Source of the DNA: Microbacterium murale | GTDB taxonomy: Bacteria; Actinomycetota; Actinomycetes; Actinomycetales; Microbacteriaceae | Length of the DNA stretch: 64,000 bases | Direction of reading: 5' to 3' | Assembly: GCF_014635185.1 (NCBI RefSeq) | Contig: NZ_BMCM01000008.1 | Coordinates: forward strand, 1 to 64,000 | Part shown: in pieces, positions 3,151 through 14,685 of the stretch | Layout of the letters: each line of letters starts with the position of its first letter | Numbering within the stretch: the first letter of the stretch is position 1 | Translations under genes and position numbers: made by a program | Notes under the pieces: generated by a model | Told to the model about the DNA's origin: nothing | The model's input: the letters and a program-made list of their open reading frames with translations, nothing else | Database searches by the model: none

Positions 3151-3194
3151 TGTCTCGTAACCTAAGCGTCTCGTAACCCATGCGTTGTGCGACA
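3151..3194. repeat. 44-bp palindromic element, copy 3
   Basis: Starts TGTCTCGTAACCTAAGCGTC, then TCGTAACCCATGCGTTGTGC and GACAC. It lies between the convergent ends of the 49-residue gene (3107, +) and the lipoprotein gene (3229, -). Confidence 0.7.
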
Positions 3195-3228
3195 CGGAGC
3201 GAGCGCCGAACTCCAGAGCGGGATGTGT

Positions 3229-3627
3229 TTAGAGGGTGACCGTGACGCCATAGCCGAGGTCGACGGTGACCGGGGCCCCAGGCGAAACAGGCGCGGGCAC
3301 TTTGTACATAGCCGGGCCGATATCCGCCGTACAGGAGAAACCGCCTGCGGCTTCCAGCGTGACTTCGAACGCGCGCTCTCCGGTTTCGCGGATGTCGCGC
3401 GGCTCATTCGGGCATGTGGAGCTCCCGAAGGTGAGGAACAGCCACGATTCACCGTCTTCAGACCACACGACCGTTGGCTCCATCTCAGGCCCGGCCACTC
3501 CTTCGAGTTCTGGAGGTACTTCGTCCAGTCGTTCCGCACTGCTGCTGGAGCATCCCGCGAGAACGAGCACAAGCACCGGCACGAAGATCAATGCAGCACG
3601 CGTCATGCGGTGATTCTTCCAGCTCAT
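3229..3627 (-). CDS. Putative lipoprotein, unknown function
   Basis: A 132-residue protein with a signal peptide ending in the lipobox LVLAGC (Cys 26), so it should be lipid-anchored outside the membrane. Two further Cys residues in the mature part (TCPNEP and FSCTAD) could form a disulfide. Its ATG overlaps the stop of the sigma factor upstream by 4 nt (ATGA), so it is translationally coupled as the third gene of the module 4738 to 3229. No family recognised. It may sense an extracytoplasmic signal or be a target of the sigma factor; this is inferred from position only. Confidence 0.75.
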   Translation of the reverse strand: MSWKNHRMTRAALIFVPVLVLVLAGCSSSSAERLDEVPPELEGVAGPEMEPTVVWSEDGESWLFLTFGSSTCPNEPRDIRETGERAFEVTLEAAGGFSCTADIGPAMYKVPAPVSPGAPVTVDLGYGVTVTL

Positions 3628-4163
3628 CGCGTCACGTCGGCAGTCAGGTGGGCACGAAGCTTCGCCCGCGCCCTCGAGTACCTGCTGCGCACAGTCGCTG
3701 GCTTCTTCCCGAGGACCCTCGCTGCGTCCGCGAGAGAGAACCCATCCCAGTGAACGAGTTGAATGATCTCTCGATCAATCTCGGGGAGTGCACGCAGCGC
3801 CTCCCACACGTCGTCGCGCACGGGTCGTGTGTCGCCGCTGACGAGAGCTTCGCCTTTGAGTCGTTCGCTCAGCGAGCGCCGACGGACGATGCTGCGACTA
3901 TGGTTCGCGAGCACGTTCCGCGCGATTCCGAACGCCCACATTCGTGCCTCGGTGGGATCCGTCGGCAACGACGAAGACTTCTGCCACATCGTGAGCATGA
4001 CCTCACCGGTGAGGTCAGCTGCGTCCTCAGTGGAGACGACGCGTCGTGCGAAGTACGCGAACAGGGCGCGCTTGCTCCCGTCGACGAGACGAGGAAGATC
4101 GAGCGTGTCGTTGCTCCACATCCATTGGAGGGCTTCGATCGACTCTTCTGGCGGCCCGAGCAT
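3624..4163 (-). CDS. ECF-type RNA polymerase sigma factor (second module)
   Basis: A 179-residue protein from the ATG at 4163, with region 2 near residues 25-85 (LFAYFARRVVSTEDAADLTG) and region 4 near 120-172 (ALPEIDREIIQLVHWDGFSL, ending TVRSRYSRARAKLRAHL). The start is chosen because its ATG overlaps the stop of the upstream gene (TGATG), and upstream sequence in this frame is inside that gene. The order is unusual: the membrane protein gene comes first, then sigma, then a lipoprotein. It differs from the sigma factor at 1245, so the two modules are not a recent duplication. Confidence 0.85.
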   Translation of the reverse strand: MLGPPEESIEALQWMWSNDTLDLPRLVDGSKRALFAYFARRVVSTEDAADLTGEVMLTMWQKSSSLPTDPTEARMWAFGIARNVLANHSRSIVRRRSLSERLKGEALVSGDTRPVRDDVWEALRALPEIDREIIQLVHWDGFSLADAARVLGKKPATVRSRYSRARAKLRAHLTADVTR

Positions 4164-4738
4164 CAGTGCAGTTCCCACTTGCACGTCGACGTCCCCGCCG
4201 TACCGACGCCGAGACGATCCAGGTAGCCCTGCGGGATCTCTTGTACGACGACTGTTGAGATGCCCTTCGACACGGTCATCTGATCGAGGGTCTCCTGGGT
4301 GATCTCCGGATCCGTATCCGGGTCTCCGACCTTCAGGGGCTCTTGTATGGCGAGGTCGTAGCCGCGTTGACCGATACCGGCCCAGTCGTGTGAGGTGATC
4401 CATTCCTTCGCTGCGGTTACGTCAGTGCCGTTCCAGCTTCGGATTGCCAACGAGTAGGTGCATTCAACAGACCTGCCCGTGTCCGTCACGTAGGAGATCG
4501 GAATGACGGCATCCGGCGTGAAGTTTGGCGCGATGTACACAGTCGCAGCCGTTGCGAGCACTCCCGCGCCAAACAGCGCTCCGACAGCGGCAATCCGTGC
4601 ACCGCGGCGCCCGCGCGGCCGCCGATGTTCTTGTTCTGCCCGAGCAGCGATTCGCACGAGCATTGCGTCTAAAAGTTCAGGGGACTCTGCCCACGTATCG
4701 CGCGGGGAGAGAAGCTTGTCGAGCTGAGTGTCGTCCAC
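4163..4738 (-). CDS. Single-pass membrane protein, probable anti-sigma or sensor partner
   Basis: A 191-residue protein starting with GTG, with GGAGG about 6 nt upstream. A charged cytoplasmic part of about 48 residues (DDTQLDKLLSPRDTWAESPE) leads into one membrane segment near residues 49-70. The extracytoplasmic part of about 120 residues has two Cys (VECTYS and TSTCKW) that may pair. Topology and position as first gene of an ECF operon resemble an anti-sigma factor, but no known anti-sigma motif is visible. Confidence 0.65.
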   Translation of the reverse strand: MDDTQLDKLLSPRDTWAESPELLDAMLVRIAARAEQEHRRPRGRRGARIAAVGALFGAGVLATAATVYIAPNFTPDAVIPISYVTDTGRSVECTYSLAIRSWNGTDVTAAKEWITSHDWAGIGQRGYDLAIQEPLKVGDPDTDPEITQETLDQMTVSKGISTVVVQEIPQGYLDRLGVGTAGTSTCKWELH

Positions 4739-4777
4739 GGGTTTCCTCCGATGATCCGTTCACTCTGTTCATGTCTG

Positions 4778-4796
4778 GCAACCCTCAAAGTGTTGC
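4778..4796. promoter_or_regulatory. Inverted repeat in the promoter region of the second sigma module
   Basis: GCAAC at 4778-4782 and GTTGC at 4792-4796 flank 9 nt, about 40-58 nt upstream of the GTG at 4738. Read on the minus strand this places a GCAAC motif where ECF promoters often have a -35 of that kind, so it may be an autoregulated ECF promoter. Confidence 0.35.
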
Positions 4797-4933
4797 ATCT
4801 CGATCAAAAGGATTCCCGTGATGTCGTCATCGACGACAACTACGAGGACCGACCAGAGATCGACACGCGCATACTCGAGCAGCGACAGTGCGCTACATCG
4901 CTTGCGGCCTCCACTCCTGCCCAGAATCCGGGG

Positions 4934-4980
4934 ATGCGAGACGTCGCCGATGTACGTCTAATCCTCACGAGAGGGACCGT
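4934..4980. repeat. 47-bp repeat, second copy (pairs with 894-940)
   Basis: GATGCGAGACGTCGC followed by GTCTAATCCTCACGAGAGG matches the first copy in order and spacing. It lies just upstream of the promoter of the gene at 5015. Apart from this repeat and the two promoter regions, 4739-5002 holds nothing I can recognise. Confidence 0.6.
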
Positions 4981-5002
4981 CCTGACGCCGAAATCGCGCG
5001 AC

Positions 5003-5014
5003 TAGGCTCGCTTC
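5003..5014 (+). promoter_or_regulatory. Leaderless promoter, -10 TAGGCT
   Basis: TAGGCT at 5003-5008 and 6 nt to the ATG at 5015. The stretch around it (CGACTAGGCTCG) is nearly the same as the promoter at 511. Confidence 0.6.
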
Positions 5015-5311
5015 ATGGATCCCTTCGAAGTCTCTGTCGATGGCGAATTGTTCCGCATCAGCGAGAGGTGCGAACCAAGCGCGACCATCACCTACGATTT
5101 CACCTGGTTGAACGGACCAGCCAACGGAACCTACGGCTTCAGCCTCGGGGGCATTGCCATTAACGCTGATGAAACCGAGTCGTCCAAGGCTTCCAAGTTG
5201 TCCAGAGAACAACTGATCGCTCAGGTGCATGGGTTTGTGGACTCGTTCTTCGAAGACGGCGGAATAGGCCAAGAAGATTTTCCCGATCATGTACCGGCAC
5301 GGAGACGTTGA
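5015..5311 (+). CDS. Conserved-looking hypothetical protein, 98 residues
   Basis: A soluble protein starting MDPFEVSVDGELFRISERCE with mixed beta-strand-like content, a single Cys and an acidic C-terminal helix (LIAQVHGFVDSFFEDGG). No signal peptide or membrane segment. The frame is preferred over a longer antisense frame because it has its own leaderless promoter and normal codon use. It ends 23 nt before copy 4 of the 44-bp element and is convergent with the GrpB-like gene. No family recognised. Confidence 0.6.
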   Translation: MDPFEVSVDGELFRISERCEPSATITYDFTWLNGPANGTYGFSLGGIAINADETESSKASKLSREQLIAQVHGFVDSFFEDGGIGQEDFPDHVPARRR

Positions 5312-5334
5312 GGCGGGACCGTCTTCCGAGAGCG

Positions 5335-5378
5335 TGTCTCGTAACCTCCCTGTTTCGTATCCCATGGGTTACAAGACA
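5335..5378. repeat. 44-bp palindromic element, copy 4
   Basis: The clearest palindrome of the set: TGTCTCGTAACC at 5335-5346 is mirrored by GGTTACAAGACA at 5367-5378 with one mismatch. The interior carries a second TTTCGTATCCCATG. It lies between the convergent genes ending at 5311 (+) and 5429 (-). Confidence 0.75.
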
Positions 5379-5428
5379 GGATGGGTCGAGCAAAGGCTTG
5401 GCTGCACGGCTGGGCCGCCTTACGCGGT

Positions 5429-6031
5429 TCAGTGGCGAGTCGTTGCCCACGCCTCGAACTCTGACTGAACCTGGTCGAAGAACTGCGTTTTGGCCAGGGT
5501 GTAGTCGTCGTAGTCGGCTTTGCCGATCTGCTGCGCGCTGAGTGTCAGTTTTACAGTCTCGTAGCGTTGGCGGGCGTCGGTGTTTTCTCGAAGCCAGTTG
5601 CGGAACCAGATCGTGTACAGACCCCAGGGCGAGTCCGCACGACGGACGTGAAGTATCGCCTGGTCGTCTTCATGCCAGAACAGCAGCTTTTCCCAGACCA
5701 AGGCATCGACCTTCATCGACCCCCTGGGTATGTCGCGATCAACTCCTGGGGAGTCGGGACGTGAACCGCGTGCGCGCACGTAACCAAGCGGTTCGAGGCG
5801 GGTGACGAGATCAGTCTCCGAGGGAAGCGGGGAGATGCGCAGTTGCAGGTCCACGAACGGCTTCGCGGCGAGGCCCGGCACAGATGTCGAGCCGATGTGG
5901 TCCAGTGCCGCGGCATCCGCACCATCAAGTCCACCGATGGCGTCCTCGATGCCCGACAGCAAACGTAACGCTCGCTGTGCCCACTCTGCCTGATGCTCGA
6001 CCAGCGCGGCTGGGTTTTTCTCATCGCTCAC
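5429..6031 (-). CDS. GrpB family protein (UPF0157), nucleotidyltransferase fold
   Basis: A 200-residue protein with the family hallmark DHIGSTSVPGLAAKPFVDL near residues 45-63, where the GS and D residues match the nucleotidyltransferase core. The expected length fits. Substrates of this family are not established. The start is the GTG at 6031 rather than an in-frame ATG 13 codons upstream: TAGATT lies 7 nt before the GTG, and the upstream codons would cover that promoter. It is convergent with the gene at 5015. Confidence 0.85.
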   Translation of the reverse strand: MSDEKNPAALVEHQAEWAQRALRLLSGIEDAIGGLDGADAAALDHIGSTSVPGLAAKPFVDLQLRISPLPSETDLVTRLEPLGYVRARGSRPDSPGVDRDIPRGSMKVDALVWEKLLFWHEDDQAILHVRRADSPWGLYTIWFRNWLRENTDARQRYETVKLTLSAQQIGKADYDDYTLAKTQFFDQVQSEFEAWATTRH

Positions 6032-6038
6032 GCGGTCG

Positions 6039-6044
6039 AATCTA
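6039..6044 (-). promoter_or_regulatory. Leaderless promoter, -10 TAGATT
   Basis: On the minus strand TAGATT is followed by 7 nt and the GTG at 6031. There is no ribosome binding site. Confidence 0.5.
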
Positions 6045-6082
6045 CCGGTCTCGAATCTGACCTTGGGCAACCGTCGCGAGGC

Positions 6083-6727
6083 TCAGCTGAACGTGCTCAG
6101 CGCCCGCCGGTAGCTCTCGCTGTTCTCGCGCGTGGCTGCGGTCATGAGCAGGGCGTTCTCGCCGACTCTGCGAGTGAACTCACCCGAACAGGGAATGGTC
6201 ACGACCTTCGTCAGGCCCGCACGCCATGCGGGGATCAGGGCCGGCAGATCGCGATGCTCTGGTTGGTCGGAGAGGCTCTTGGGCATCGCCGCCAGATGCG
6301 CATCCATTCCACGTTGGAACCAGTCGCTGTGTGAATCGTCGTCGAACGCGCTGTCACCGAAATCGTCGCGCCCGGTCGGGCCGATCATCCGGTGCAGCAG
6401 ATCGGCTCGTTCGGTCGAGCCGTCTGCGGTGGTGCGAAGCTCATCGAACAGCCGCGGGTCGCTGTCTTGAGCGGCGTGCGACAGTGCGGCATGCCAAATA
6501 CGACGCCACGCACCCGCCCATTCCTCGCGAGTCTCGGCGCTGACGCCAGAGTCATGAACGGTCGCTGGTGTATCGGACAGCAGCGGAGGAAGGTCTTCAC
6601 CTCGCGGCTGCAGCTCGTAGGCCTCCCGAATCCAGAGCAACTCCAGGAGGGCGTTGGCTCGATCCTCGACCGTGATCGACATGTCGTGCGGCCACGGGTT
6701 TCCCGGTATTGGTGTGCTGGATCTCAT
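6083..6727 (-). CDS. Hypothetical protein, 214 residues
   Basis: A soluble, acidic, helix-rich protein with no signal peptide. Visible features are ANALLELLWIREAYELQPRG near residue 25 and ALIPAWRAGLTKVVTIPC near residue 170, a pattern I cannot place in a family. The ATG at 6727 is chosen because GAGAG and GGGAG motifs precede it; an ATG 16 codons inside is possible. It stands alone between the GrpB-like gene and the VOC gene, all on the minus strand. Confidence 0.6.
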   Translation of the reverse strand: MRSSTPIPGNPWPHDMSITVEDRANALLELLWIREAYELQPRGEDLPPLLSDTPATVHDSGVSAETREEWAGAWRRIWHAALSHAAQDSDPRLFDELRTTADGSTERADLLHRMIGPTGRDDFGDSAFDDDSHSDWFQRGMDAHLAAMPKSLSDQPEHRDLPALIPAWRAGLTKVVTIPCSGEFTRRVGENALLMTAATRENSESYRRALSTFS

Positions 6728-6801
6728 GACTCCCACTCTCGTCGTCGTCGTGCATCGAGCACCACCCCAGGTTGCCGATCCAGAATCCGGCCGCAGCGAG
6801 C

Positions 6802-7653
6802 TCAGGCGGCGAGCTCGGCCTTCAAGATGTTGTTCCACGGATCGGTGAAGGTCAGCGTCCGTCCGTCGTCGCGCACTTCGGTTCCGTAGTGCGCAAGACG
6901 CTCGTTCAGCTCACCCAGCGCATCCGCGTTCGGGAGCGCGAGGTCGACCTGACCCAGCCCGAGCGCCGGCATCCGCGGACCGGCTCCGCGCGAGTTCCAG
7001 ACGTTCATCGCCATGTGGTGGTGATATCCGCCGGCGCTGACGAACAGCGCTTGGTTGCCGAGGGATGCTGTCGCGTCGAAGCCGAGGCGGTTCACATAGA
7101 ACTCGCGCGCAGTCTCGACGTCACCGACCGACAGGTGCACGTGGCCGATCTGCGCCGCTCCGGTGTTCGGGGCGCCGTCGACGAGGTGCTCCTGCAGGAA
7201 CGCGTTCGGGTCGAGGTAGAGGGTCGCCATCTCGATCTGCCCGTGCGTCCATGACCAGTCGGAGCGGTCGCGATCCCAGTACAGCTCGATGCCGTTGCCC
7301 TCGGGGTCGGTGAGGTAGAACGCCTGGCTCACCAGGTGATCGGCGCTGCCGGTGAAGGTCTGCGGCGCGTGCTGTGCGACCGAGAACAGGGCGCCGGCGA
7401 GCGCCGCCTGCGACTCGAACACGATCGCCGTGTGGAACAGGCCGGCCGAGCCGGGGCTGGCATGGCGCAGCGTCGGCTCGTGGCGGAGGACCACCAGCGG
7501 CGTTCCGCTGCGTCCGAGCGTCACGGCGTCACCCGCGGCATCCTGCACCTGGAGCGTGATGACATCGCGGTAGAACGTGGTCATCGCGTCGAGGTCGGCG
7601 ACCAGCAGGGTGACAGCACCCATCGATGTTGCCGCGGCAAGTTTTTCATTCAT
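6802..7653 (-). CDS. Two-domain VOC family protein (CatE-like ring-cleavage or glyoxalase fold)
   Basis: A 283-residue protein with two vicinal-oxygen-chelate domains, residues about 8-130 and 165-280. Candidate metal ligands are His74 (LFHTAIVFE), Glu123 (GIELYWDRDRSDW), His171/His173 (GHVHLSVGD) and the His cluster at 211-213. The GIELYWDR motif and length fit the CatE-like group (catechol 2,3-dioxygenase annotation), but many members act on other substrates. It lies 37 nt downstream of the GntR gene on the same strand and may be transcribed with it. Confidence 0.8.
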   Translation of the reverse strand: MNEKLAAATSMGAVTLLVADLDAMTTFYRDVITLQVQDAAGDAVTLGRSGTPLVVLRHEPTLRHASPGSAGLFHTAIVFESQAALAGALFSVAQHAPQTFTGSADHLVSQAFYLTDPEGNGIELYWDRDRSDWSWTHGQIEMATLYLDPNAFLQEHLVDGAPNTGAAQIGHVHLSVGDVETAREFYVNRLGFDATASLGNQALFVSAGGYHHHMAMNVWNSRGAGPRMPALGLGQVDLALPNADALGELNERLAHYGTEVRDDGRTLTFTDPWNNILKAELAA

Positions 7654-7690
7654 GTCAATGGAAACGGGCTACGGCCGGAATGTATTCCCT

Positions 7691-8329
7691 TCAGCCGCGC
7701 CCCATTCGCGCGAAGGCGCCCAGCACGGTGCGCTCCGAGGTGATGAGGTAACTCTCCAGCGCGTCGGCCGCAGCATGCGGGCCGTCTTCGAGAAGCGTCT
7801 TGAGCACGATCCGGTTCTTGCGCACGAAGGGCTCGTGCAGTGCGCGAGGGTCGTCGATCTCGAGGAACACCAGACGGAGTTCGGCTGCGACATCCCGATA
7901 GGTGCGGGCAAGTCTCGGGCTGTCGGCGAGGGCGACGATCGCATCGTGGAAGGCCATGTTCGCGCTGCCGACGCGGTGCCACTCCTCGTTCGGGAGGTGC
8001 TGTTCGGCCTCGGCGAGCGCGGAGCGCATCAGCTGCACCGCCGGATGCTCCGGCTCCGACTGCCGCAGCGCAGAGCACTCGATCACGCGGCGCGCACGAT
8101 AGATGTCGATGACGTCGGCGATCGAAGGCGCCGCCACCGACACGCCGCGATGCGGGATGTGCTCGATGAGGCCCTGCTCGGCCAGAACCCGGAACGCCTC
8201 CCGCAGCGTGTTGCGCGAGACCTCGAAACGCTCGGCCAGCGCCGCCTCCGAGAGGCGGGCGCCCGGCGCGAAGTCGCCGTCGATGATCCTCTGACGCAGC
8301 ACATCGGCCAGTGCTCCCTGATGGTTCAC
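7691..8329 (-). CDS. GntR family regulator, FCD (FadR-type) subgroup
   Basis: A 212-residue protein. An N-terminal winged helix-turn-helix (residues 5-65, AALAERFEVSRNTLREAFRV) is followed by an all-helical FCD ligand domain (about 75-205). The His residues of the metal site are plausible in AFHDAIVALADS. It is divergent from the pxp operon, and a TTGTTGAACAA palindrome lies between them. It probably represses that operon and itself in response to a pathway acid such as 5-oxoproline; the ligand is inferred. Confidence 0.88.
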   Translation of the reverse strand: MNHQGALADVLRQRIIDGDFAPGARLSEAALAERFEVSRNTLREAFRVLAEQGLIEHIPHRGVSVAAPSIADVIDIYRARRVIECSALRQSEPEHPAVQLMRSALAEAEQHLPNEEWHRVGSANMAFHDAIVALADSPRLARTYRDVAAELRLVFLEIDDPRALHEPFVRKNRIVLKTLLEDGPHAAADALESYLITSERTVLGAFARMGRG

Positions 8330-8380
8330 GCCTTCATGTTAAGCGGACAGGACCCTGCGCGTAGCATCCCGGAAATAAAG

Positions 8381-8414
8381 TTGTTGAACAATCAGACCCA
8401 ATCCGTTCTACACT
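8381..8414 (+). promoter_or_regulatory. Promoter of the pxp operon with overlapping GntR operator
   Basis: TTGTTGAACAA at 8381-8391 is an 11-bp near-perfect palindrome, of the type bound by FCD GntR repressors. A -10 TACACT lies at 8409-8414, and a possible -35 (TTGAAC, 8384-8389) lies within the palindrome at a long 19-nt spacing. A repressor bound here would block the promoter. Confidence 0.55.
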
Positions 8415-8456
8415 CGGTGTCACCCGACACCCGCCAAAGACGATGGGAACCCCTTC

Positions 8457-9740
8457 ATGTCCGAGCAGTCCCCGACTGACGCCCAGACGACCGCGCAGAC
8501 CGAAGCGCAACTCGCCGCAGTGAAGAAGCGCGTCGGCCGCAGCGCCGTCATCGGTGCGATCTTCCTCATGGCCACCTCAGCCATCGGCCCCGGCTTCATC
8601 ACCCAGACCGCGACCTTCACCGCATCGATGGGAGCGGCGTTCGCCTTCGCCATCCTCGTGTCGGTGCTCATCGACATCGCCGTTCAGCTCAACGTCTGGC
8701 GCATGATCACCTCGTCCGGCAAGCGCGCCGGCGAACTCGCGAACTCGGCCATCCCGTTCTCCGGACACGTGATCGCGGTCCTCGTCGTGATCGGCGGTCT
8801 CGCGTTCAACATCGGCAACATCGCCGGTGGCGGCCTGGGGCTGAACGCGCTGCTGGGCATCGATCCCAAGATCGGCGGCCTGCTCACCGGGGCCCTGGCG
8901 ATCGTGATCTTCCTGATCAAGAAGGCCGGCAAGGTGATGGACATCGTGCTGGTGATCCTCGGCATCGGCATGATCGTCATGACGGTCGTCGTCGCGATCA
9001 TCGCCCAGCCCCCGATCGGCGACGCGCTGCGTCAGACGTTCGTTCCGGACGAGCTGAACTTCGCCACCATCACCACGATCGTCGGCGGCACCGTCGGCGG
9101 ATACATCACCTATTCCGGCGCGCACCGCTACCTCGACTCCGGCCACACCGGTCCGGAGTACGCGGGCCCGGTCATGCGGGCAGCGGCCAACGGCATCCTC
9201 ATCACCGGCATCATGCGCTACGTGCTGTTCCTCGCGATCCTCGGCGTCGTCGCATCCGGTGTCGTCCTCGACCTGTCCAGCCAGGCCGCCAACCCCGCGG
9301 GTCAGGCCTTCGGGTCTGTGCTGGGTGACGCGGGTCTGCGCATCTTCGGTGCGATCTTCTGGGCGGCCGCCCTCAGTTCGGTCATCGGCGCCGCGTACAC
9401 GTCGGCGACATTCCTGTCGTCGTTCCACAAGCGCTTCCTCGGCGGCTGGTCGCTGCAGATCGCCACGGTGGCGTTCATCGTCGTCTCGCTGATCGTGTAC
9501 CTGTCGATCGGCACCGCACCCGCGGCGATCCTGGTCTTCGTCGGCGGCTTCAACGGACTCATCCTCCCGATCGGCCTTACGGTGTTCATGTACATCGGAT
9601 GGTTCCGCCGCGACCTGCTCGGCACGAAGAAGTACCCGCTGGTGCTGCTGATCGCCGGCACACTGGTGACGCTGCTCACCTGGTACATGGGCATCGTCTC
9701 GGTCGGACCCATCTTCGCCTTCCTCGGAACCGGAGCGTGA
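8457..9740 (+). CDS. Nramp-like transporter lacking metal-binding motifs (YcsG type)
   Basis: A 427-residue membrane protein with about 11 hydrophobic segments and the LeuT/Nramp fold pattern. The metal-binding DPGN of true Nramp proteins is replaced by GPGF (residues 44-47), and the MPH of the sixth segment by GGY (214-216). It is therefore unlikely to carry divalent metals. The first gene of the pxp operon, it matches the place of YcsG beside ycsF/kipIA in Bacillus. A role in importing the lactam or acid that the operon consumes is inferred. It is followed 2 nt later by pxpA. Confidence 0.8.
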
Positions 9741-9742
9741 CC

Positions 9743-10507
9743 ATGCCCACCATCGACCTGAACTCCGACCTCGGCGAGAACGTCCCGGACCGTATTGTCA
9801 GCGACGACGTCGCGATGCTCGAGATCGTGACCAGTGCGAACGTGTCGTGCGGGTTCCACGCGGGCAGCCCGGAGGGCATCCGCGAGACTCTGGATGCTGC
9901 GGTGCGAAGCGGCGTCGTGATCGGCGCCCACCCCGGCTATCGCGACTACGAGAACTTCGGCCGTACGAACGTCGAAATCGACTCCCCGACGCTGCAGGCG
10001 CACGTCGAGTACCAGCTCGGCGCACTCATCGGATTGGCCTCTTCGGTCGGGGGCAAGGTCTCATACGTCAAGCCGCACGGTGCGCTGTACAACACGATCG
10101 CCCGCGACGAGCGGCAGTCCGCCGACGTGGTCGCGGCGATCAAGGCGATCGATCCGAGTCTCGTGCTGCTCGGCCTCGCGGGCGGCGTGGTGCTGGATGT
10201 CGCGTCGAAGGCCGGACTCGCGGTCGCCTCCGAAGCCTTTGCCGACCGGGCATACATGCCGGACGGGCAGCTCGTCTCGCGCACCCAGGAGGGCGCCGTG
10301 CTGCACGACCCCGCCGCGGTCGCCGAGCGCATGGTGCGGCTGGCGTCCGACGGCGTGATCCGCGCGATCGACGGTTCGGACGTGCGCGTCGAGGCGCAGT
10401 CGATCTGCGTGCATGGCGACAGCCCCGGTTCGATCGAGATGGCAGCGGAGACGAAGCGGATGCTGCAGGCAGCGGGCATCACGATCGCACCGTTCGCCGG
10501 AGTCTGA
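9743..10507 (+). CDS. pxpA: 5-oxoprolinase subunit A (LamB/YcsF family)
   Basis: A 254-residue cytoplasmic protein with the family motifs in order: DLNSDLGE at residues 4-11, [11 protein letters not shown] near 31-41, GAHPGYRD near 60-67 and VKPHGALYN near 107-115. These acidic and His residues line the hydrolase site. With PxpB and PxpC it performs ATP-dependent opening of 5-oxoproline to glutamate. The ATG at 9743 lies 3 nt after the transporter stop, so translation is coupled. All parts of the enzyme are encoded in this operon. Confidence 0.93.
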
Positions 10508-10508
10508 G

Positions 10509-11309
10509 ATGGGCGTGATTGCGACTTCTGATCAGCTCGCGACCGCGCGGGCGGCGCGTGGCGACTACCGTGCGGGACGTGCGGTGCCGACCAGCGGTGT
10601 CGCGGCCGGTCTCACGCAGGCGAACCTCATCGCGGTGCCGGCGGACTGGGCGTTCGAGACACTGCTTTATGCGCAGCGCAATCCGAAGCCGTGCCCGGTG
10701 CTCGAGGTCATCGAGCGGGGGCAGGTGGAATCGGTGCTGGCGCCGGGCAGCGACATCCGCACCGACATCGGCCGGTACCGGATCTGGCGCGACGGCGAAC
10801 TGGCCTCCGAGGTGACCGATGCGACGGACGCCTGGGACGAGCATCGGGATCTCGTCGCCTTCCTGATCGGATGCAGCTTCACTTTCGAGACGGGACTCGT
10901 GGATGCCGGCATCCCGATCCGCCACCAGGAACTCGGCCGCAACGTGCCGATGTACCGCACGAACATCGACTGCACTCCGGCCGGACGTCTGCGCGGCGAG
11001 ATGGTCGTGTCGATGCGGCCGATCCCCGCCGGGCGGGTGGCGGATGCTGTGCAGATCTCCGGACGGACGCCCGCCGTGCACGGCGCCCCTGTGCACATCG
11101 GCGACCCCTCATCGCTCGGCATCGCCGACCTGTCGCGCCCCGACTTCGGGGATGCCCCGGAGGTGCGCGAGGGCGAGATCCCGGTGTTCTGGGCCTGCGG
11201 CGTCACTCCCCAGGCGGCGATCATGGCGTCCAGGCCACCGTTCGCCGTCACCCACGCACCCGGCTACATGTTCATCACCGACGTGCCGGATGCGGAGTAC
11301 ATCGTCTGA
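10509..11309 (+). CDS. DUF1445 / UPF0317 protein (putative hydro-lyase, D-glutamate cyclase-like)
   Basis: A 266-residue protein starting 1 nt after pxpA. It shows the conserved blocks of DUF1445: [10 protein letters not shown] near residue 118, [18 protein letters not shown] near 136 and [12 protein letters not shown] near 226. A mammalian mitochondrial homologue converts D-glutamate to 5-oxo-D-proline, which suggests a link to the same metabolite pool. The Bacillus counterpart YcsI is also in the ycs-kip cluster. Its exact reaction in bacteria is not established; context supports a role in feeding or shaping the oxoprolinase substrate. Confidence 0.85.
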
Positions 11310-12976
11310 TGCGCATCCTCACAGCATCCGACCGCACGCTGCTCGTCGAGGCGGCCGACCTCGACGAGGCCATGCGACTCAATCTCGCGTGGGACGGCTT
11401 ACCCGGGGTCGTCGAGCGCATCCCCGGAGCCCGCACGGTGCTCGTGCGATTCGATCCGCTGCGCACGTCGGCTGCCGCGCTGGCTGAGGTGCTTTCGGCC
11501 ACGCGCGTGGATGCCGAGCACGTGCCGCACACCCGCGAGGTCGCTGTGCCGGTGCACTACGACGGCGAGGATCTCGCGGAGGCCGCAGGGCTGCTCGGCG
11601 TCTCGGCTGAGGAGCTCGTGAACCGCCACCTCGCGGCCGACTGGCAGGTCGCGTTCTCTGGCTTCGCGCCGGGATTCGGCTACGTGGTCAGCGGGGATCC
11701 GCTGTTCGACGTGCCGCGCCGCTCGTCGCCGCGCACGCGCGTGCCCGCCGGTTCGGTCGCGCTCGCCGGGCAGTTCACGGGCGTGTACCCCCGCGAGAGT
11801 CCGGGGGGCTGGCAACTGATCGGACATACGGATGCCGTGATGTGGGACATCGACCGCGACCCGCCGGCGCTGCTGTCGCCGGGGGCGCTGGTGAGGTTCG
11901 AGCGCGCGGGGCGGGAGGGGCTTCGACTCCCTGCGGTCGCTCAACCCGTTTCGTCTCCGGCTGCTTCGCAGCCTGCGCTCAACGACCCGCAAGCGGGGTC
12001 ATCGGTCGGGGGCGGGTCGTTGAGCGAGCGCAGCGAGTCGAAACGGGTTGAGCGAGCCGAAGGCGAGTCGAAGCCTTCCGCCCCCTCCGTCGAGATCATC
12101 CGCCCGTCCCTGCAACTGCTGGTGCAGGATGCCGGCAGACCAGGCCACGCGGCGCTCGGAGTCTCCGCATCCGGAGCCGCCGATCGCACGGCACTGCGCG
12201 ACGCCAACCGCGCCGTGGGCAATGAGATCGCGGCCGCGGTGCTCGAGAGCGTCGGCGGCCTGACCCTCCGCTTCCACGGCGACGGCGTCGTGGCCGTCAC
12301 CGGCGCGATCGGCGAACTCACGCTGACGGATGCCGGCGGCCTCACCCGCAGCATCCCGCACGGCGCCCCATTCGCCACGGTCGACGGCGACGAACTCACC
12401 CTCGGCCATCCGAGTCACGGGTTGCGCTACGTGATCGGCATTCGCGGCGGCCTGGCCGCAGCATCCGCTCTCGGCAGCCGAGCCAGCGATACGCTCGCAG
12501 GCCTCGGACCCGACCCGCTCGCCGCCGGTGATGTCGTCGATATCGGAGACGCCGCACGGCACGCGGTCGACCCGGTGGCCACCCCGCGCGAACTGCCTGC
12601 ATCCGGCGACCTCGTCGAACTCGACATCACGCTCGGCCCGCGTGACGACTGGTTCACGGCATCCGCTCTCGACACCCTGACGACGCAGGAGTGGCTGGTC
12701 ACGCCGCGCTCCGACCGTGTCGGCATCCGGCTGCAGGGCGACGTGCCGCTGGAGCGCACGACGCAGGGCGAGTTGCCCAGCGAGGGGGCCGTGACCGGGG
12801 CGATCCAGGTGCCGCCGGACGGCCAACCGGTGCTGTTCCTGCCGGATCATCCGCTCACCGGCGGCTATCCGATCATCGGCGCGCTCACCGATCGCTGCCT
12901 GGATCTCGCCGCCCAACTGCCGCCGGGTGCGCGCATCCGTTTCCGAATCTCCCGCATCGAAGAAGGACTGTCATGA
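11309..12976 (+). CDS. pxpBC: Fused 5-oxoprolinase subunits B and C (KipI-KipA; AHS1-AHS2)
   Basis: A 555-residue fusion. Residues 1-203 are PxpB/KipI (SGFAPGFGY at 117-125, VPAGSVALAG at 145-154, ESPGGWQLIG after it). Residues from about 258 are PxpC/KipA (LVQDAGRPGHAALGVSASG at 271-289). The linker, residues 204-256, is encoded by a palindromic repeat (see 11919-12075) and is rich in Ser, Ala, Glu and Lys. AHS1 and AHS2 are also the carboxyltransferase part of urea carboxylase. Its ATG overlaps the upstream stop (TGATG), and its own stop overlaps the ATG of the biotin carboxylase gene. Confidence 0.92.
   Translation: MRILTASDRTLLVEAADLDEAMRLNLAWDGLPGVVERIPGARTVLVRFDPLRTSAAALAEVLSATRVDAEHVPHTREVAVPVHYDGEDLAEAAGLLGVSAEELVNRHLAADWQVAFSGFAPGFGYVVSGDPLFDVPRRSSPRTRVPAGSVALAGQFTGVYPRESPGGWQLIGHTDAVMWDIDRDPPALLSPGALVRFERAGREGLRLPAVAQPVSSPAASQPALNDPQAGSSVGGGSLSERSESKRVERAEGESKPSAPSVEIIRPSLQLLVQDAGRPGHAALGVSASGAADRTALRDANRAVGNEIAAAVLESVGGLTLRFHGDGVVAVTGAIGELTLTDAGGLTRSIPHGAPFATVDGDELTLGHPSHGLRYVIGIRGGLAAASALGSRASDTLAGLGPDPLAAGDVVDIGDAARHAVDPVATPRELPASGDLVELDITLGPRDDWFTASALDTLTTQEWLVTPRSDRVGIRLQGDVPLERTTQGELPSEGAVTGAIQVPPDGQPVLFLPDHPLTGGYPIIGALTDRCLDLAAQLPPGARIRFRISRIEEGLS
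11919..12075. repeat. Nested palindromic (REP-like) repeat inside pxpBC
   Basis: The outer arms 11919-11953 and 12039-12075 are nearly complementary (GGCTTCGACTCCCTGCGG against CCGAAGGCGAGTCGAAGCC, continuing through CAACCCGTTTCG / CGAAACGGGTTG). The inner arms CGCTCAACGACCCGC (11976-11990) and GCGGGTCGTTGAGCG (12012-12026) are perfect. Motifs such as GTCGTTGAGCGAGCGCAGCG recur as intergenic palindromes in Microbacteriaceae as far as I recall. Here the repeat is in frame and supplies the fusion linker. Confidence 0.85.
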
Positions 12977-14685
12977 AGAAGGTGCTGATCGCCAATCGCG
13001 GCGAGATCGCGGTGCGCGTGATCCGCGCATGCGCCGAAGCCGGGTACGCCTCAGTCGCCGTGTACGCCGATCAGGATGCCGACGCGCTGCACGTGCGTCT
13101 GGCCGACGAGGCGGTGGGGTTGGGCGGGACGACCGCCGCCGACACGTACCTCTCGATCGCCGCTCTGCTGCGGGGCGCCGCCGACAGCGGGGCGGATGCC
13201 GTGCACCCCGGATACGGATTCCTCTCGGAGAGCGCGGAGTTCGCTCGCGCGGTCGAGGGCGCTGGACTCGTCTGGATCGGACCGTCACCCGAGAGCATCG
13301 ACGCGCTGGGCGACAAGATGACCGCGCGACGGATCGCGCAGAAGGTGAACGCACCCCTCGCGGCTGGCACGGATCAGCCGCTCGCGGGGCCGGCCGAAGC
13401 GGTCGCCTTCGCCGAAGAGCATGGGCTGCCGATCGCGATCAAGGCCGCGTTCGGGGGTGGGGGCCGAGGGCTGAAAGTCGTCCGCGAGTTGTCGGAGGTG
13501 GCGGAGGCATTCGACGCCGCGACCCGTGAGGCGATCGTGGCCTTCGGCCGCGGCGAGTGCTTCGTGGAGCGGTTCCTCGAGAGCCCGCGACACATCGAAG
13601 TGCAGGTGCTCGGCGACGGCCAGGGTGACATCGTGGTCGTCGGCGACCGCGACTGCTCGATGCAGCGGCGCAATCAGAAGCTGATCGAAGAGGCTCCGGC
13701 GCCCGGACTGACCGCTGCGCAGCGTTCCGAGATCCACGACGCCGCGCGCCGGATCTGCGCCGATGTCTCGTACCGCGGCGCGGGAACCGTCGAGTTCCTG
13801 CTTGCTGCGGATGGCACGATCTCGTTCCTCGAGGTGAACACGCGACTGCAGGTCGAACATCCGGTGACCGAGGAGGTCACGGGTGTCGATCTGGTGGCCG
13901 AGCAGTTCCGGATCGCGTCAGGGCTCGGCCCGTCGTTCAGCGATACCCCCGAGCCGCGGGGGCATGCGTTCGAGTTCCGGATCAATGCCGAAGACCCCGG
14001 TCGCGGATTCCTGCCCAGCCCGGGAGTCGTCTCGACGCTGCGGATTCCTGGCGGCCCTGGCGTGCGGTGGGACAGCGGGATCGAAGCAGGGGATGCCGTG
14101 CAGTCGGCGTTCGACTCGATGATCGCGAAGCTCATCGTGCACGCTGATTCGCGGGATGCTGCGCTGATCCGCGCGCGCCGCGCGTTGCGGGAGCTGTCGG
14201 TCGAAGGCCCCGCGACGGTCATTCCGTTCGATCGGCTGGCGGTCGACGAGCCGGAGTTCCAGACCGACACGTTCGCCGTGCACACGCAGTGGATCGAGGG
14301 CACTCTGCTGCCGCGGTTGGAGCCGCAGCTGCGGCCGGCGCCGGTCGAGGATGCCGCGCTGCAGCGCTTCGCCGTCGAGATCGATGGGCGCCGCGTGATG
14401 CTCGGAGTGCCTTCGGCGCTGCTGCGGGGATTCGCCGGTGGGGGTGTGCAGGCGGTTGCTCCGGCATCCGCTGATCCCGCCGAGCTGCGGGCGCCGGCTC
14501 CTGGCACGCTGGTGCGCTGGCTGGTGGATGACAGCGCTTCCGTGGAGGCGGGGGATGCCGTCGCCGTACTCGACGCGATGAAGATGGAGACTCAGGTCAC
14601 AGCGCATCGAGCCGGGGCGCTGGTGCACGCGGCATCCGTGGGTGATTCGATCGCTGCGGATGCTGTGATCGGCCGCATCGGCTGA
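12973..14685 (+). CDS. Biotin carboxylase fused to biotin carboxyl carrier domain
   Basis: A 570-residue protein. The biotin carboxylase part (about 1-445) starts KKVLIANRGEIAVRVIRACA and has the ATP-grasp glycine loop GGGGRG at 161-166 and EVNTRLQVEHP at 288-298. The C-terminal biotinyl domain (about 495-570) has AMKMET with the biotin-accepting Lys at 537. There is no dedicated carboxyltransferase gene nearby apart from AHS1-AHS2 in the preceding gene, which overlaps it by 4 nt. In context it looks like the energising half of a split urea-carboxylase-like enzyme rather than acetyl-CoA carboxylase. Last gene of the operon. Confidence 0.9.
   Translation: MKKVLIANRGEIAVRVIRACAEAGYASVAVYADQDADALHVRLADEAVGLGGTTAADTYLSIAALLRGAADSGADAVHPGYGFLSESAEFARAVEGAGLVWIGPSPESIDALGDKMTARRIAQKVNAPLAAGTDQPLAGPAEAVAFAEEHGLPIAIKAAFGGGGRGLKVVRELSEVAEAFDAATREAIVAFGRGECFVERFLESPRHIEVQVLGDGQGDIVVVGDRDCSMQRRNQKLIEEAPAPGLTAAQRSEIHDAARRICADVSYRGAGTVEFLLAADGTISFLEVNTRLQVEHPVTEEVTGVDLVAEQFRIASGLGPSFSDTPEPRGHAFEFRINAEDPGRGFLPSPGVVSTLRIPGGPGVRWDSGIEAGDAVQSAFDSMIAKLIVHADSRDAALIRARRALRELSVEGPATVIPFDRLAVDEPEFQTDTFAVHTQWIEGTLLPRLEPQLRPAPVEDAALQRFAVEIDGRRVMLGVPSALLRGFAGGGVQAVAPASADPAELRAPAPGTLVRWLVDDSASVEAGDAVAVLDAMKMETQVTAHRAGALVHAASVGDSIAADAVIGRIG

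Follow-up and report, generated by a model that had tools for sequence, protein, structure and literature searches.

The 64,000-nucleotide stretch of Microbacterium murale DNA analyzed here (the window) carries, at 8457-14685, an operon that combines PxpA, a DUF1445 protein and a PxpB-PxpC fusion (PxpBC) with a fusion of biotin carboxylase (BC) and biotin carboxyl carrier protein (BCCP). We consider it likely (probability about 0.7) that this operon specifies an inducible, self-contained, biotin-dependent 5-oxoprolinase. An original prediction made from the DNA alone had proposed that a biotin-dependent N-carboxylation of a lactam might precede ring opening. Our comparison supports this possibility through the exclusive pairing of BC-BCCP with PxpBC in a family sample, the recruitment of several BC lineages to pxp loci, a CT_A_B core that the carboxyltransferase (CT) shares with urea carboxylase, Protein Data Bank (PDB) entry 9yx5 and a 5-oxoproline-type operator, while the chemistry itself is what we infer. 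Gene content, kept residues, pairing, recruitment and operator are all read from sequence.

The operon encodes the domains of a biotin-dependent carboxylase

The four proteins named in the original prediction are encoded on the + strand of a tight operon, with Pfam matches, and an NRAMP-type transporter gene that it had omitted also lies inside 8457-14685 (Table 1). The transporter and PxpA genes are separated by 2 bases and PxpA and DUF1445 by 1, and the DUF1445/PxpBC and PxpBC/BC-BCCP junctions overlap by 1 and 4 bases, respectively. The original prediction had noted all urea carboxylase-type domains here, split over two proteins, with PxpA standing where the urea system has its amide (allophanate) hydrolase. 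Pfam detects BC, BCCP and both CT halves. PxpA is recognized by PF03746 and scores 324.3 bits with the PxpA subfamily model, above its cut-off of 226.

The make-up of a biotin-dependent carboxylase is complete at the sequence level, with BC residues, a BCCP lysine and a CT domain. BC matches E. coli AccC at 19 of 20 compared positions (numbered here as in AccC), the exception being His236, which is Asn. The BCCP displays an AMKM motif with biotinyl Lys 537. When ten BC positions were followed through 42 pxp-linked tree rows, Lys116, Lys159, His209, Lys238, Glu288, Glu296 and Arg338 were kept in 42/42 and Asn290 and Arg292 in 41/42; the varying position is His236. The equivalent residue 234 of the window BC is Asn in 18/25 fused pxp-linked BCs and in 6/7 rows labeled urea carboxylase, while His occupies this position in 23/26 AccA3, AccC, MCC/PCC and pyruvate carboxylase rows, and the residue is His, Arg or Gln where a pxp-linked BC is not fused. 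Three Frigoribacterium loci (L086, L087 and L090) encode after PxpBC an inactive-looking BC whose active-site stretch has Gly, Ala and Ala/Ser in place of Asn, Arg and Gln. These loci, which also lack BCCP, favor the idea that BC-BCCP is a structural or regulatory partner of PxpBC whose biotin chemistry is unused in ring opening. We regard this as very improbable, given the near-invariance of the positions listed above and the AMKM motif retained in the window.

PxpBC scores above cut-off for both CT Pfam families. It falls below the curated PxpB model (125.9 bits, cut-off 145.55), the PxpC equivalog (158.3 bits, cut-off 500) and, narrowly, TIGR00724 (228.3 bits, cut-off 230.2). The urea carboxylase equivalog TIGR02712 is also missed by far (144.6 and 513.3 bits, cut-off 1303.85), and instead of the one-chain order of urea carboxylase, BC - CT_A_B - CT_C_D - BCCP, there are two chains with C_D before A_B. 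Pfam found no ATP-binding family in PxpBC. An AlphaFold model (mean pLDDT 88.8, 37 aligned rows) matches the folds of TTHA0988, MSMEG_0435, E. coli YbgK and the carboxyltransferase of Kluyveromyces lactis urea carboxylase, and in CT_A_B, 34 of the 38 positions that BC-linked and unlinked rows both conserve are common with 12 urea carboxylase-type rows. No conserved CT position was found to switch between 95 BC-linked and 94 unlinked rows. The idea that PxpBC comes as two different enzymes, one BC-linked and one not, was rejected on this ground and because linkage changes many times on the PxpC tree. The linker between PxpB and PxpC (residues 203-253, pLDDT <50) is predicted to be disordered. 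Its coding sequence is an inverted, repeat-like element, the core of which recurs in 30 exact copies across the genome (reversed control, 0); in the close relative L038 the linker is different.

BC-BCCP pairs with PxpBC in the genome and in the family

We then asked which CT the BC-BCCP protein might serve. The genome encodes four BCs and two CoA-type CTs (PF01039). One BC lies within an 1148-aa pyruvate carboxylase-like frame, another adjoins the CT on contig C3, and the AccA3-like BC is found ~5 kb from the other CoA-type CT, on contig C4. The sole CT beside the operon BC-BCCP is PxpBC. BC-BCCP is 57% identical to the AccA3-like protein of the same genome and falls outside a group of 11 AccA3-like rows (group support 94) in the BC tree, with no CoA-type CT nearby, so it is not an AccA3 member by position or by neighborhood. 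A role as general acyl-CoA carboxylase subunit was rejected because of this placement and because both CoA-type CTs have their own BC near.

The original prediction had suggested a genome survey for co-occurrence as a check. Across 150 Microbacteriaceae genomes, with at most 9 candidates scored per genome, 41 BC-BCCP relatives passed an E value of 1e-196. For each of the top 15 by score (59-100% identical), PxpC is no more than 200 bases away; none of the remaining 26 (57-60% identical, AccA3-like) adjoins PxpC, and even the nearest of them is separated from it by 24 kb, although 14 of the 26 genomes concerned have PxpBC elsewhere. Pairing with PxpBC is exclusive for the 15 nearest relatives, and BC is enriched at Pxp-type loci, as detailed below. 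Among 24 chosen genomes, seven Microbacterium-type pxp loci without BC (L040, L048, L049, L057, L058, L061 and L079) come from genomes whose best BC-BCCP is AccA3-like (58-59% identical). In a Burkholderiales genome (G306), the pxp locus L080 lacks a BC, and a lone BC-BCCP, L122, is encoded at another place. In the BC tree L122 groups as sister to the BC of L077 (support 83), and in the PxpC tree L080 and L077 are sisters (support 99).

BC genes are widespread at pxp loci and appear to have been recruited repeatedly

How common this association might be was estimated in two samples, counting a BC when it fell within the fetched stretch of about 17 kb around the locus. For Actinomycetota, 77 of 79 distinct places were used (excluding the window and a fragment of 171 bases), of which 12 with the urea carboxylase domain order and 1 unclassed were set aside, leaving 64. 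For Pseudomonadota, 40 of 61 places were used, leaving out 19 frames of at least 1180 aa, the place in the center genome itself and a fragment at a contig edge. A BC is found near 20/64 and 12/40 Pxp-type loci, respectively, whereas the density of BC genes in 65 genomes (224 over 261.5 Mb) would predict ~1.4%; binomial values for this enrichment overstate certainty because rows share descent. Chance neighborhood was rejected on the strength of this excess and of the exclusive pairing in Microbacteriaceae. Layouts include fused BC-BCCP after PxpBC, the order PxpB-PxpC-BCCP-BC-DUF1445-PxpA, and a divergent BC with BCCP after PxpA. The CT of L153, L155, L179, L190 and L201 is in urea carboxylase order (A_B before C_D), with no BC in the same frame.

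The gene set is also plasmid-borne. Five plasmid records were inspected, from Klebsiella pneumoniae, Bradyrhizobium, Natronorubrum aibiense, Azospirillum oryzae and Deinococcus gobiensis. The K. pneumoniae IncFIB plasmid (L250) displays at 3169-10329 the gene order of the window operon, and a second, partial BC-BCCP frame is found at 932-2398 near an IS1 transposase. In the Bradyrhizobium plasmid (L252), two biotin/lipoyl-domain (BCCP) genes flank PxpB-PxpC at 5378-10126, followed by PxpA and BC. The haloarchaeal plasmid of N. aibiense (L254) encodes PxpB, PxpC, BCCP, PxpA and BC; beside its complete BC gene, two opposed 132-aa frames (10033-10431 and 10415-10813) match the BC profile. No BC is listed near pxp in the A. 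oryzae and D. gobiensis plasmids. The BC-pxp gene set is widespread and not peculiar to this genome. We also looked for PxpABC genomes without any BC. Among 65 examined, of 70 genomes with a PF02626 match, 63 have a BC, which is weak evidence because nearly all bacteria have one; of the other two, one is 62% complete and the second has a CT in urea carboxylase order, at a locus where PxpA was looked for and not found.

Trees point to repeated gain. In a tree of 76 BCs, pxp-linked BCs need 6 changes and a single clade is rejected (approximately unbiased (AU) test, p 0.00055), while the fused pxp-linked BCs alone are compatible with a single clade (AU p 0.40, not rejected). On a FastTree phylogeny of PxpC (193 rows, several long branches), BC linkage changes 17 times, and starred branches force 12 of these changes; closely related Microbacterium species differ in linkage, too. 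Descent of the operon BC from urea carboxylase was rejected on tree position, as the two occupy different places among the 76 BCs. Judging from these trees, several BC lineages were recruited to pxp loci. The simplest account would be a single chemistry, for which BC is either encoded near the locus or provided from elsewhere.

A candidate operator links the operon to 5-oxoproline

Next, we considered the likely substrate. Corynebacterium glutamicum uses pxpTABC, with the NRAMP-type PxpT, for 5-oxoproline, and its GntR repressor PxpR binds 5-oxoproline (dissociation constant 726 nM) and has the native operator agattgttcaacaatct (PMC13274462). The window contains a similar palindrome, TTGTTGAACAA, upstream of the transporter gene, where 0.08 matches with at most one mismatch would be expected; the operator-like site agrees with the C. 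glutamicum site, on the reverse strand, at 14 of 17 positions. From at least 555 relatives, the best 80 were taken as a named set, which is biased to near kin; 61 of these loci have a BC and 19 do not. The site occurs 62 times in these 80 loci when 0.1 would be expected (order-1 model). It is present in 45/61 BC-linked loci, in 33 of them near a pxp gene start, and in 1/19 unlinked loci, L111; in L111 and in L074, also among the 19, the contig stops right after PxpBC. Ten AccA3 loci and a Microbacterium-family locus without linked BC were also inspected, and no such site was seen there. Because of this distribution, BC-bearing operons would tend toward the inducible 5-oxoproline kind. A simple rule joining operator and BC is contradicted by C. 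glutamicum, which has the operator and for whose cluster no BC is described (PMC13274462).

These findings bear on another explanation, that BC-BCCP and PxpBC form a biotin-dependent carboxylase for another lactam or amide, or for another atom, with 5-oxoproline just the inducer or one substrate. We find it improbable. Urea carboxylase belongs to the same family, which speaks for it, but PxpA, the NRAMP-type transporter and the PxpR-like operator all belong to the known 5-oxoproline system.

Table 1. Features of the pxp operon and its upstream region in the window
Feature	Coordinates	Strand	Basis
GntR/FCD regulator, PxpR-like in position and family	7691..8329	-	PF00392 and PF07729; divergent layout as in C. 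glutamicum pxpR-pxpT
Operator-like palindrome TTGTTGAACAA	8381..8391	.	Center 71 bases upstream of transporter start; only match in the window at <=1 mismatch
NRAMP-type transporter, likely 5-oxoproline uptake (PxpT-like)	8457..9740	+	PF01566 (E 2.1e-20); role of PxpT in C. glutamicum
PxpA, proposed hydrolase for carboxylated lactam	9743..10507	+	PF03746 (E 3.2e-89); NCBIfam PxpA subfamily model
DUF1445 / D-glutamate cyclase family protein	10509..11309	+	PF07286 (E 3.8e-68; family now named D-glutamate cyclase)
PxpB-PxpC fusion, proposed carboxyltransferase, CT_C_D then CT_A_B	11309..12976	+	PF02682 (E 7e-60), PF02626 (E 4.1e-74)
Repeat-like stretch within predicted disordered linker of PxpB-PxpC fusion	11921..12043	+	Inverted pair in the window; genome copies; pLDDT
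BC-BCCP fusion	12973..14685	+	PF00289, PF02786, PF02785, PF00364; biotinyl-lysine codon 14581-14583

Biotin chemistry or phosphorylation

A sequence search identified PDB entry 9yx5, released 2025-11-26 and titled "Structure of the long chain acyl-CoA carboxylase complex from Mycobacterium smegmatis with MSMEG_0435-MSMEG_0436 bound," in which chains named "Allophanate hydrolase subunit 1" and "subunit 2," homologs of PxpB and PxpC, stand together with the AccA3 alpha subunit. What we take from it is its title and chain names, and our literature search found no paper describing it. Since 9yx5 joins a PxpB/PxpC pair to an AccA3-containing carboxylase, loci without BC may borrow one.

The leading alternative is that PxpABC is a phosphorylating ATP-dependent 5-oxoprolinase and that BC-BCCP merely shares its operon, serving another carboxylation, for example with a CoA-type CT. 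Phosphorylation is the mechanism still stated in print for PxpABC (PMC13274462), PxpB/PxpC ATPase activity has been reported second-hand (PMC8453981), and the majority of sampled pxp loci have no BC nearby. We nevertheless consider this explanation unlikely. BC-BCCP pairs exclusively with PxpBC in the family sample, both CoA-type CTs of the genome have a BC of their own, BC was repeatedly recruited to pxp loci, Pfam sees no ATP-binding family in PxpBC, and 9yx5, by its title and chain names, places a PxpB/PxpC pair with a biotin carboxylase subunit.

Several observations weigh against a biotin-dependent 5-oxoprolinase. There is no BC within about 17 kb at 44/64 actinomycetotal and 28/40 pseudomonadotal loci, so that at most sampled loci BC must come from elsewhere or is not needed. 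C. glutamicum grows on 5-oxoproline via pxpTABC, with no linked BC described (PMC13274462). Co-purified PxpB and PxpC hydrolyzed ATP, according to the same second-hand report (PMC8453981). CT_C_D shares just 8 of 20 conserved positions with the 12 urea carboxylase-type rows, and the three Frigoribacterium loci retain a BC without key residues and without a BCCP domain.

Proposed mechanism and significance

For a biotin-dependent 5-oxoprolinase, the families of BC, BCCP and CT suggest the first two roles: BC would use ATP and bicarbonate to form carboxybiotin on BCCP, and PxpB-PxpC would transfer the carboxyl group onto the lactam nitrogen of 5-oxoproline. PxpA would then hydrolyze the activated ring, and the carbamate would lose CO2 to give glutamate. 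The NRAMP-type protein (uptake) and the PxpR-like repressor (control) would complete the module, and pxp loci without BC would borrow a general one (AccA3, or AccB and AccC). Such a route would follow the scheme by which urea carboxylase and allophanate hydrolase work together. The acceptor atom, the order of steps, the true substrate of PxpA and BC borrowing are those that we infer. Whether the whole PxpABC family, including that of E. coli, Bacillus subtilis and C. glutamicum, consists of a biotin-dependent lactam N-carboxylase and a hydrolase, borrowing BC/BCCP from acetyl-CoA carboxylase where no dedicated one exists, we rate as an even chance.

Glutamate and glutamine form 5-oxoproline spontaneously, and the commonest prokaryotic enzyme for its removal is reported to be PxpABC (PMC13274462). 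If our reading is true, a widespread enzyme has been assigned the wrong mechanism, a lactam-acting class is added to the biotin enzymes, genes labeled as acetyl-CoA carboxylase or allophanate hydrolase subunits receive a function, and nitrogen recycling and fatty-acid synthesis share a subunit. Were it to hold family-wide, most bacterial 5-oxoprolinase activity would come from a biotin enzyme coupled to the machinery of fatty-acid synthesis, a coupling from which catabolic operons such as this one would have been freed by gaining a BC-BCCP of their own several times. A biotin carboxylase system of this kind might be used for degradation of lactams (nylon monomer).

Comparison with known systems

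Part of this picture was already in view. Public annotation names PxpC homologs "biotin-dependent carboxyltransferase family protein," and a 2011 study noted split urea carboxylase CT genes as unstudied and reported CT homologs in Thermococcales (PMC3199775). Our literature search, thin on subscription papers, found no proposal of a biotin-dependent mechanism for prokaryotic 5-oxoprolinase. An old Pseudomonas putida 5-oxoprolinase is quoted as having a component A of 64 + 51 kDa and a component B of 82 kDa (PMC8453981). With predicted masses of 59.6 kDa for BC-BCCP, 57.7 kDa for PxpBC and 26.3 kDa for PxpA, these might correspond, speculatively and only roughly, to BC-BCCP, PxpBC and three PxpA.

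The window operon has homologs of PxpA, PxpB and PxpC in common with the PxpABC systems of B. subtilis, E. coli (ybgJKL) and C. glutamicum (pxpTABC), and with the last of these also an NRAMP-type transporter, a divergent GntR regulator and the operator type. It differs from them in its fused PxpB and PxpC and in having a dedicated BC-BCCP and DUF1445 in the operon; no BC gene is found among the annotated neighbors of the E. coli pxp region. With urea carboxylase and urea amidolyase it shares BC, BCCP, both CT halves, the CT_A_B core and the CT fold, but it is built from two proteins with CT halves reversed (C_D before A_B), its BC is of another lineage, and PxpA takes the place of the allophanate hydrolase of urea amidolyase. 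AccA3-type alpha subunits are BC-BCCP fusions like that of the window, which lies outside the AccA3-like group and has no CoA-type CT beside it. Caprolactamase CapAB, for which a carboxylated lactim is among the proposed intermediates, also opens a lactam with ATP and bicarbonate; unlike the window system, it belongs to the hydantoinase / acetone carboxylase family and has no biotin carboxylase. The set in M. smegmatis 9yx5, with PxpB/PxpC homologs and BC-BCCP (AccA3) in one entry, resembles that of the window, except that its BC-BCCP is a shared acyl-CoA carboxylase subunit, whereas the window encodes a separate paralog within the pxp operon.

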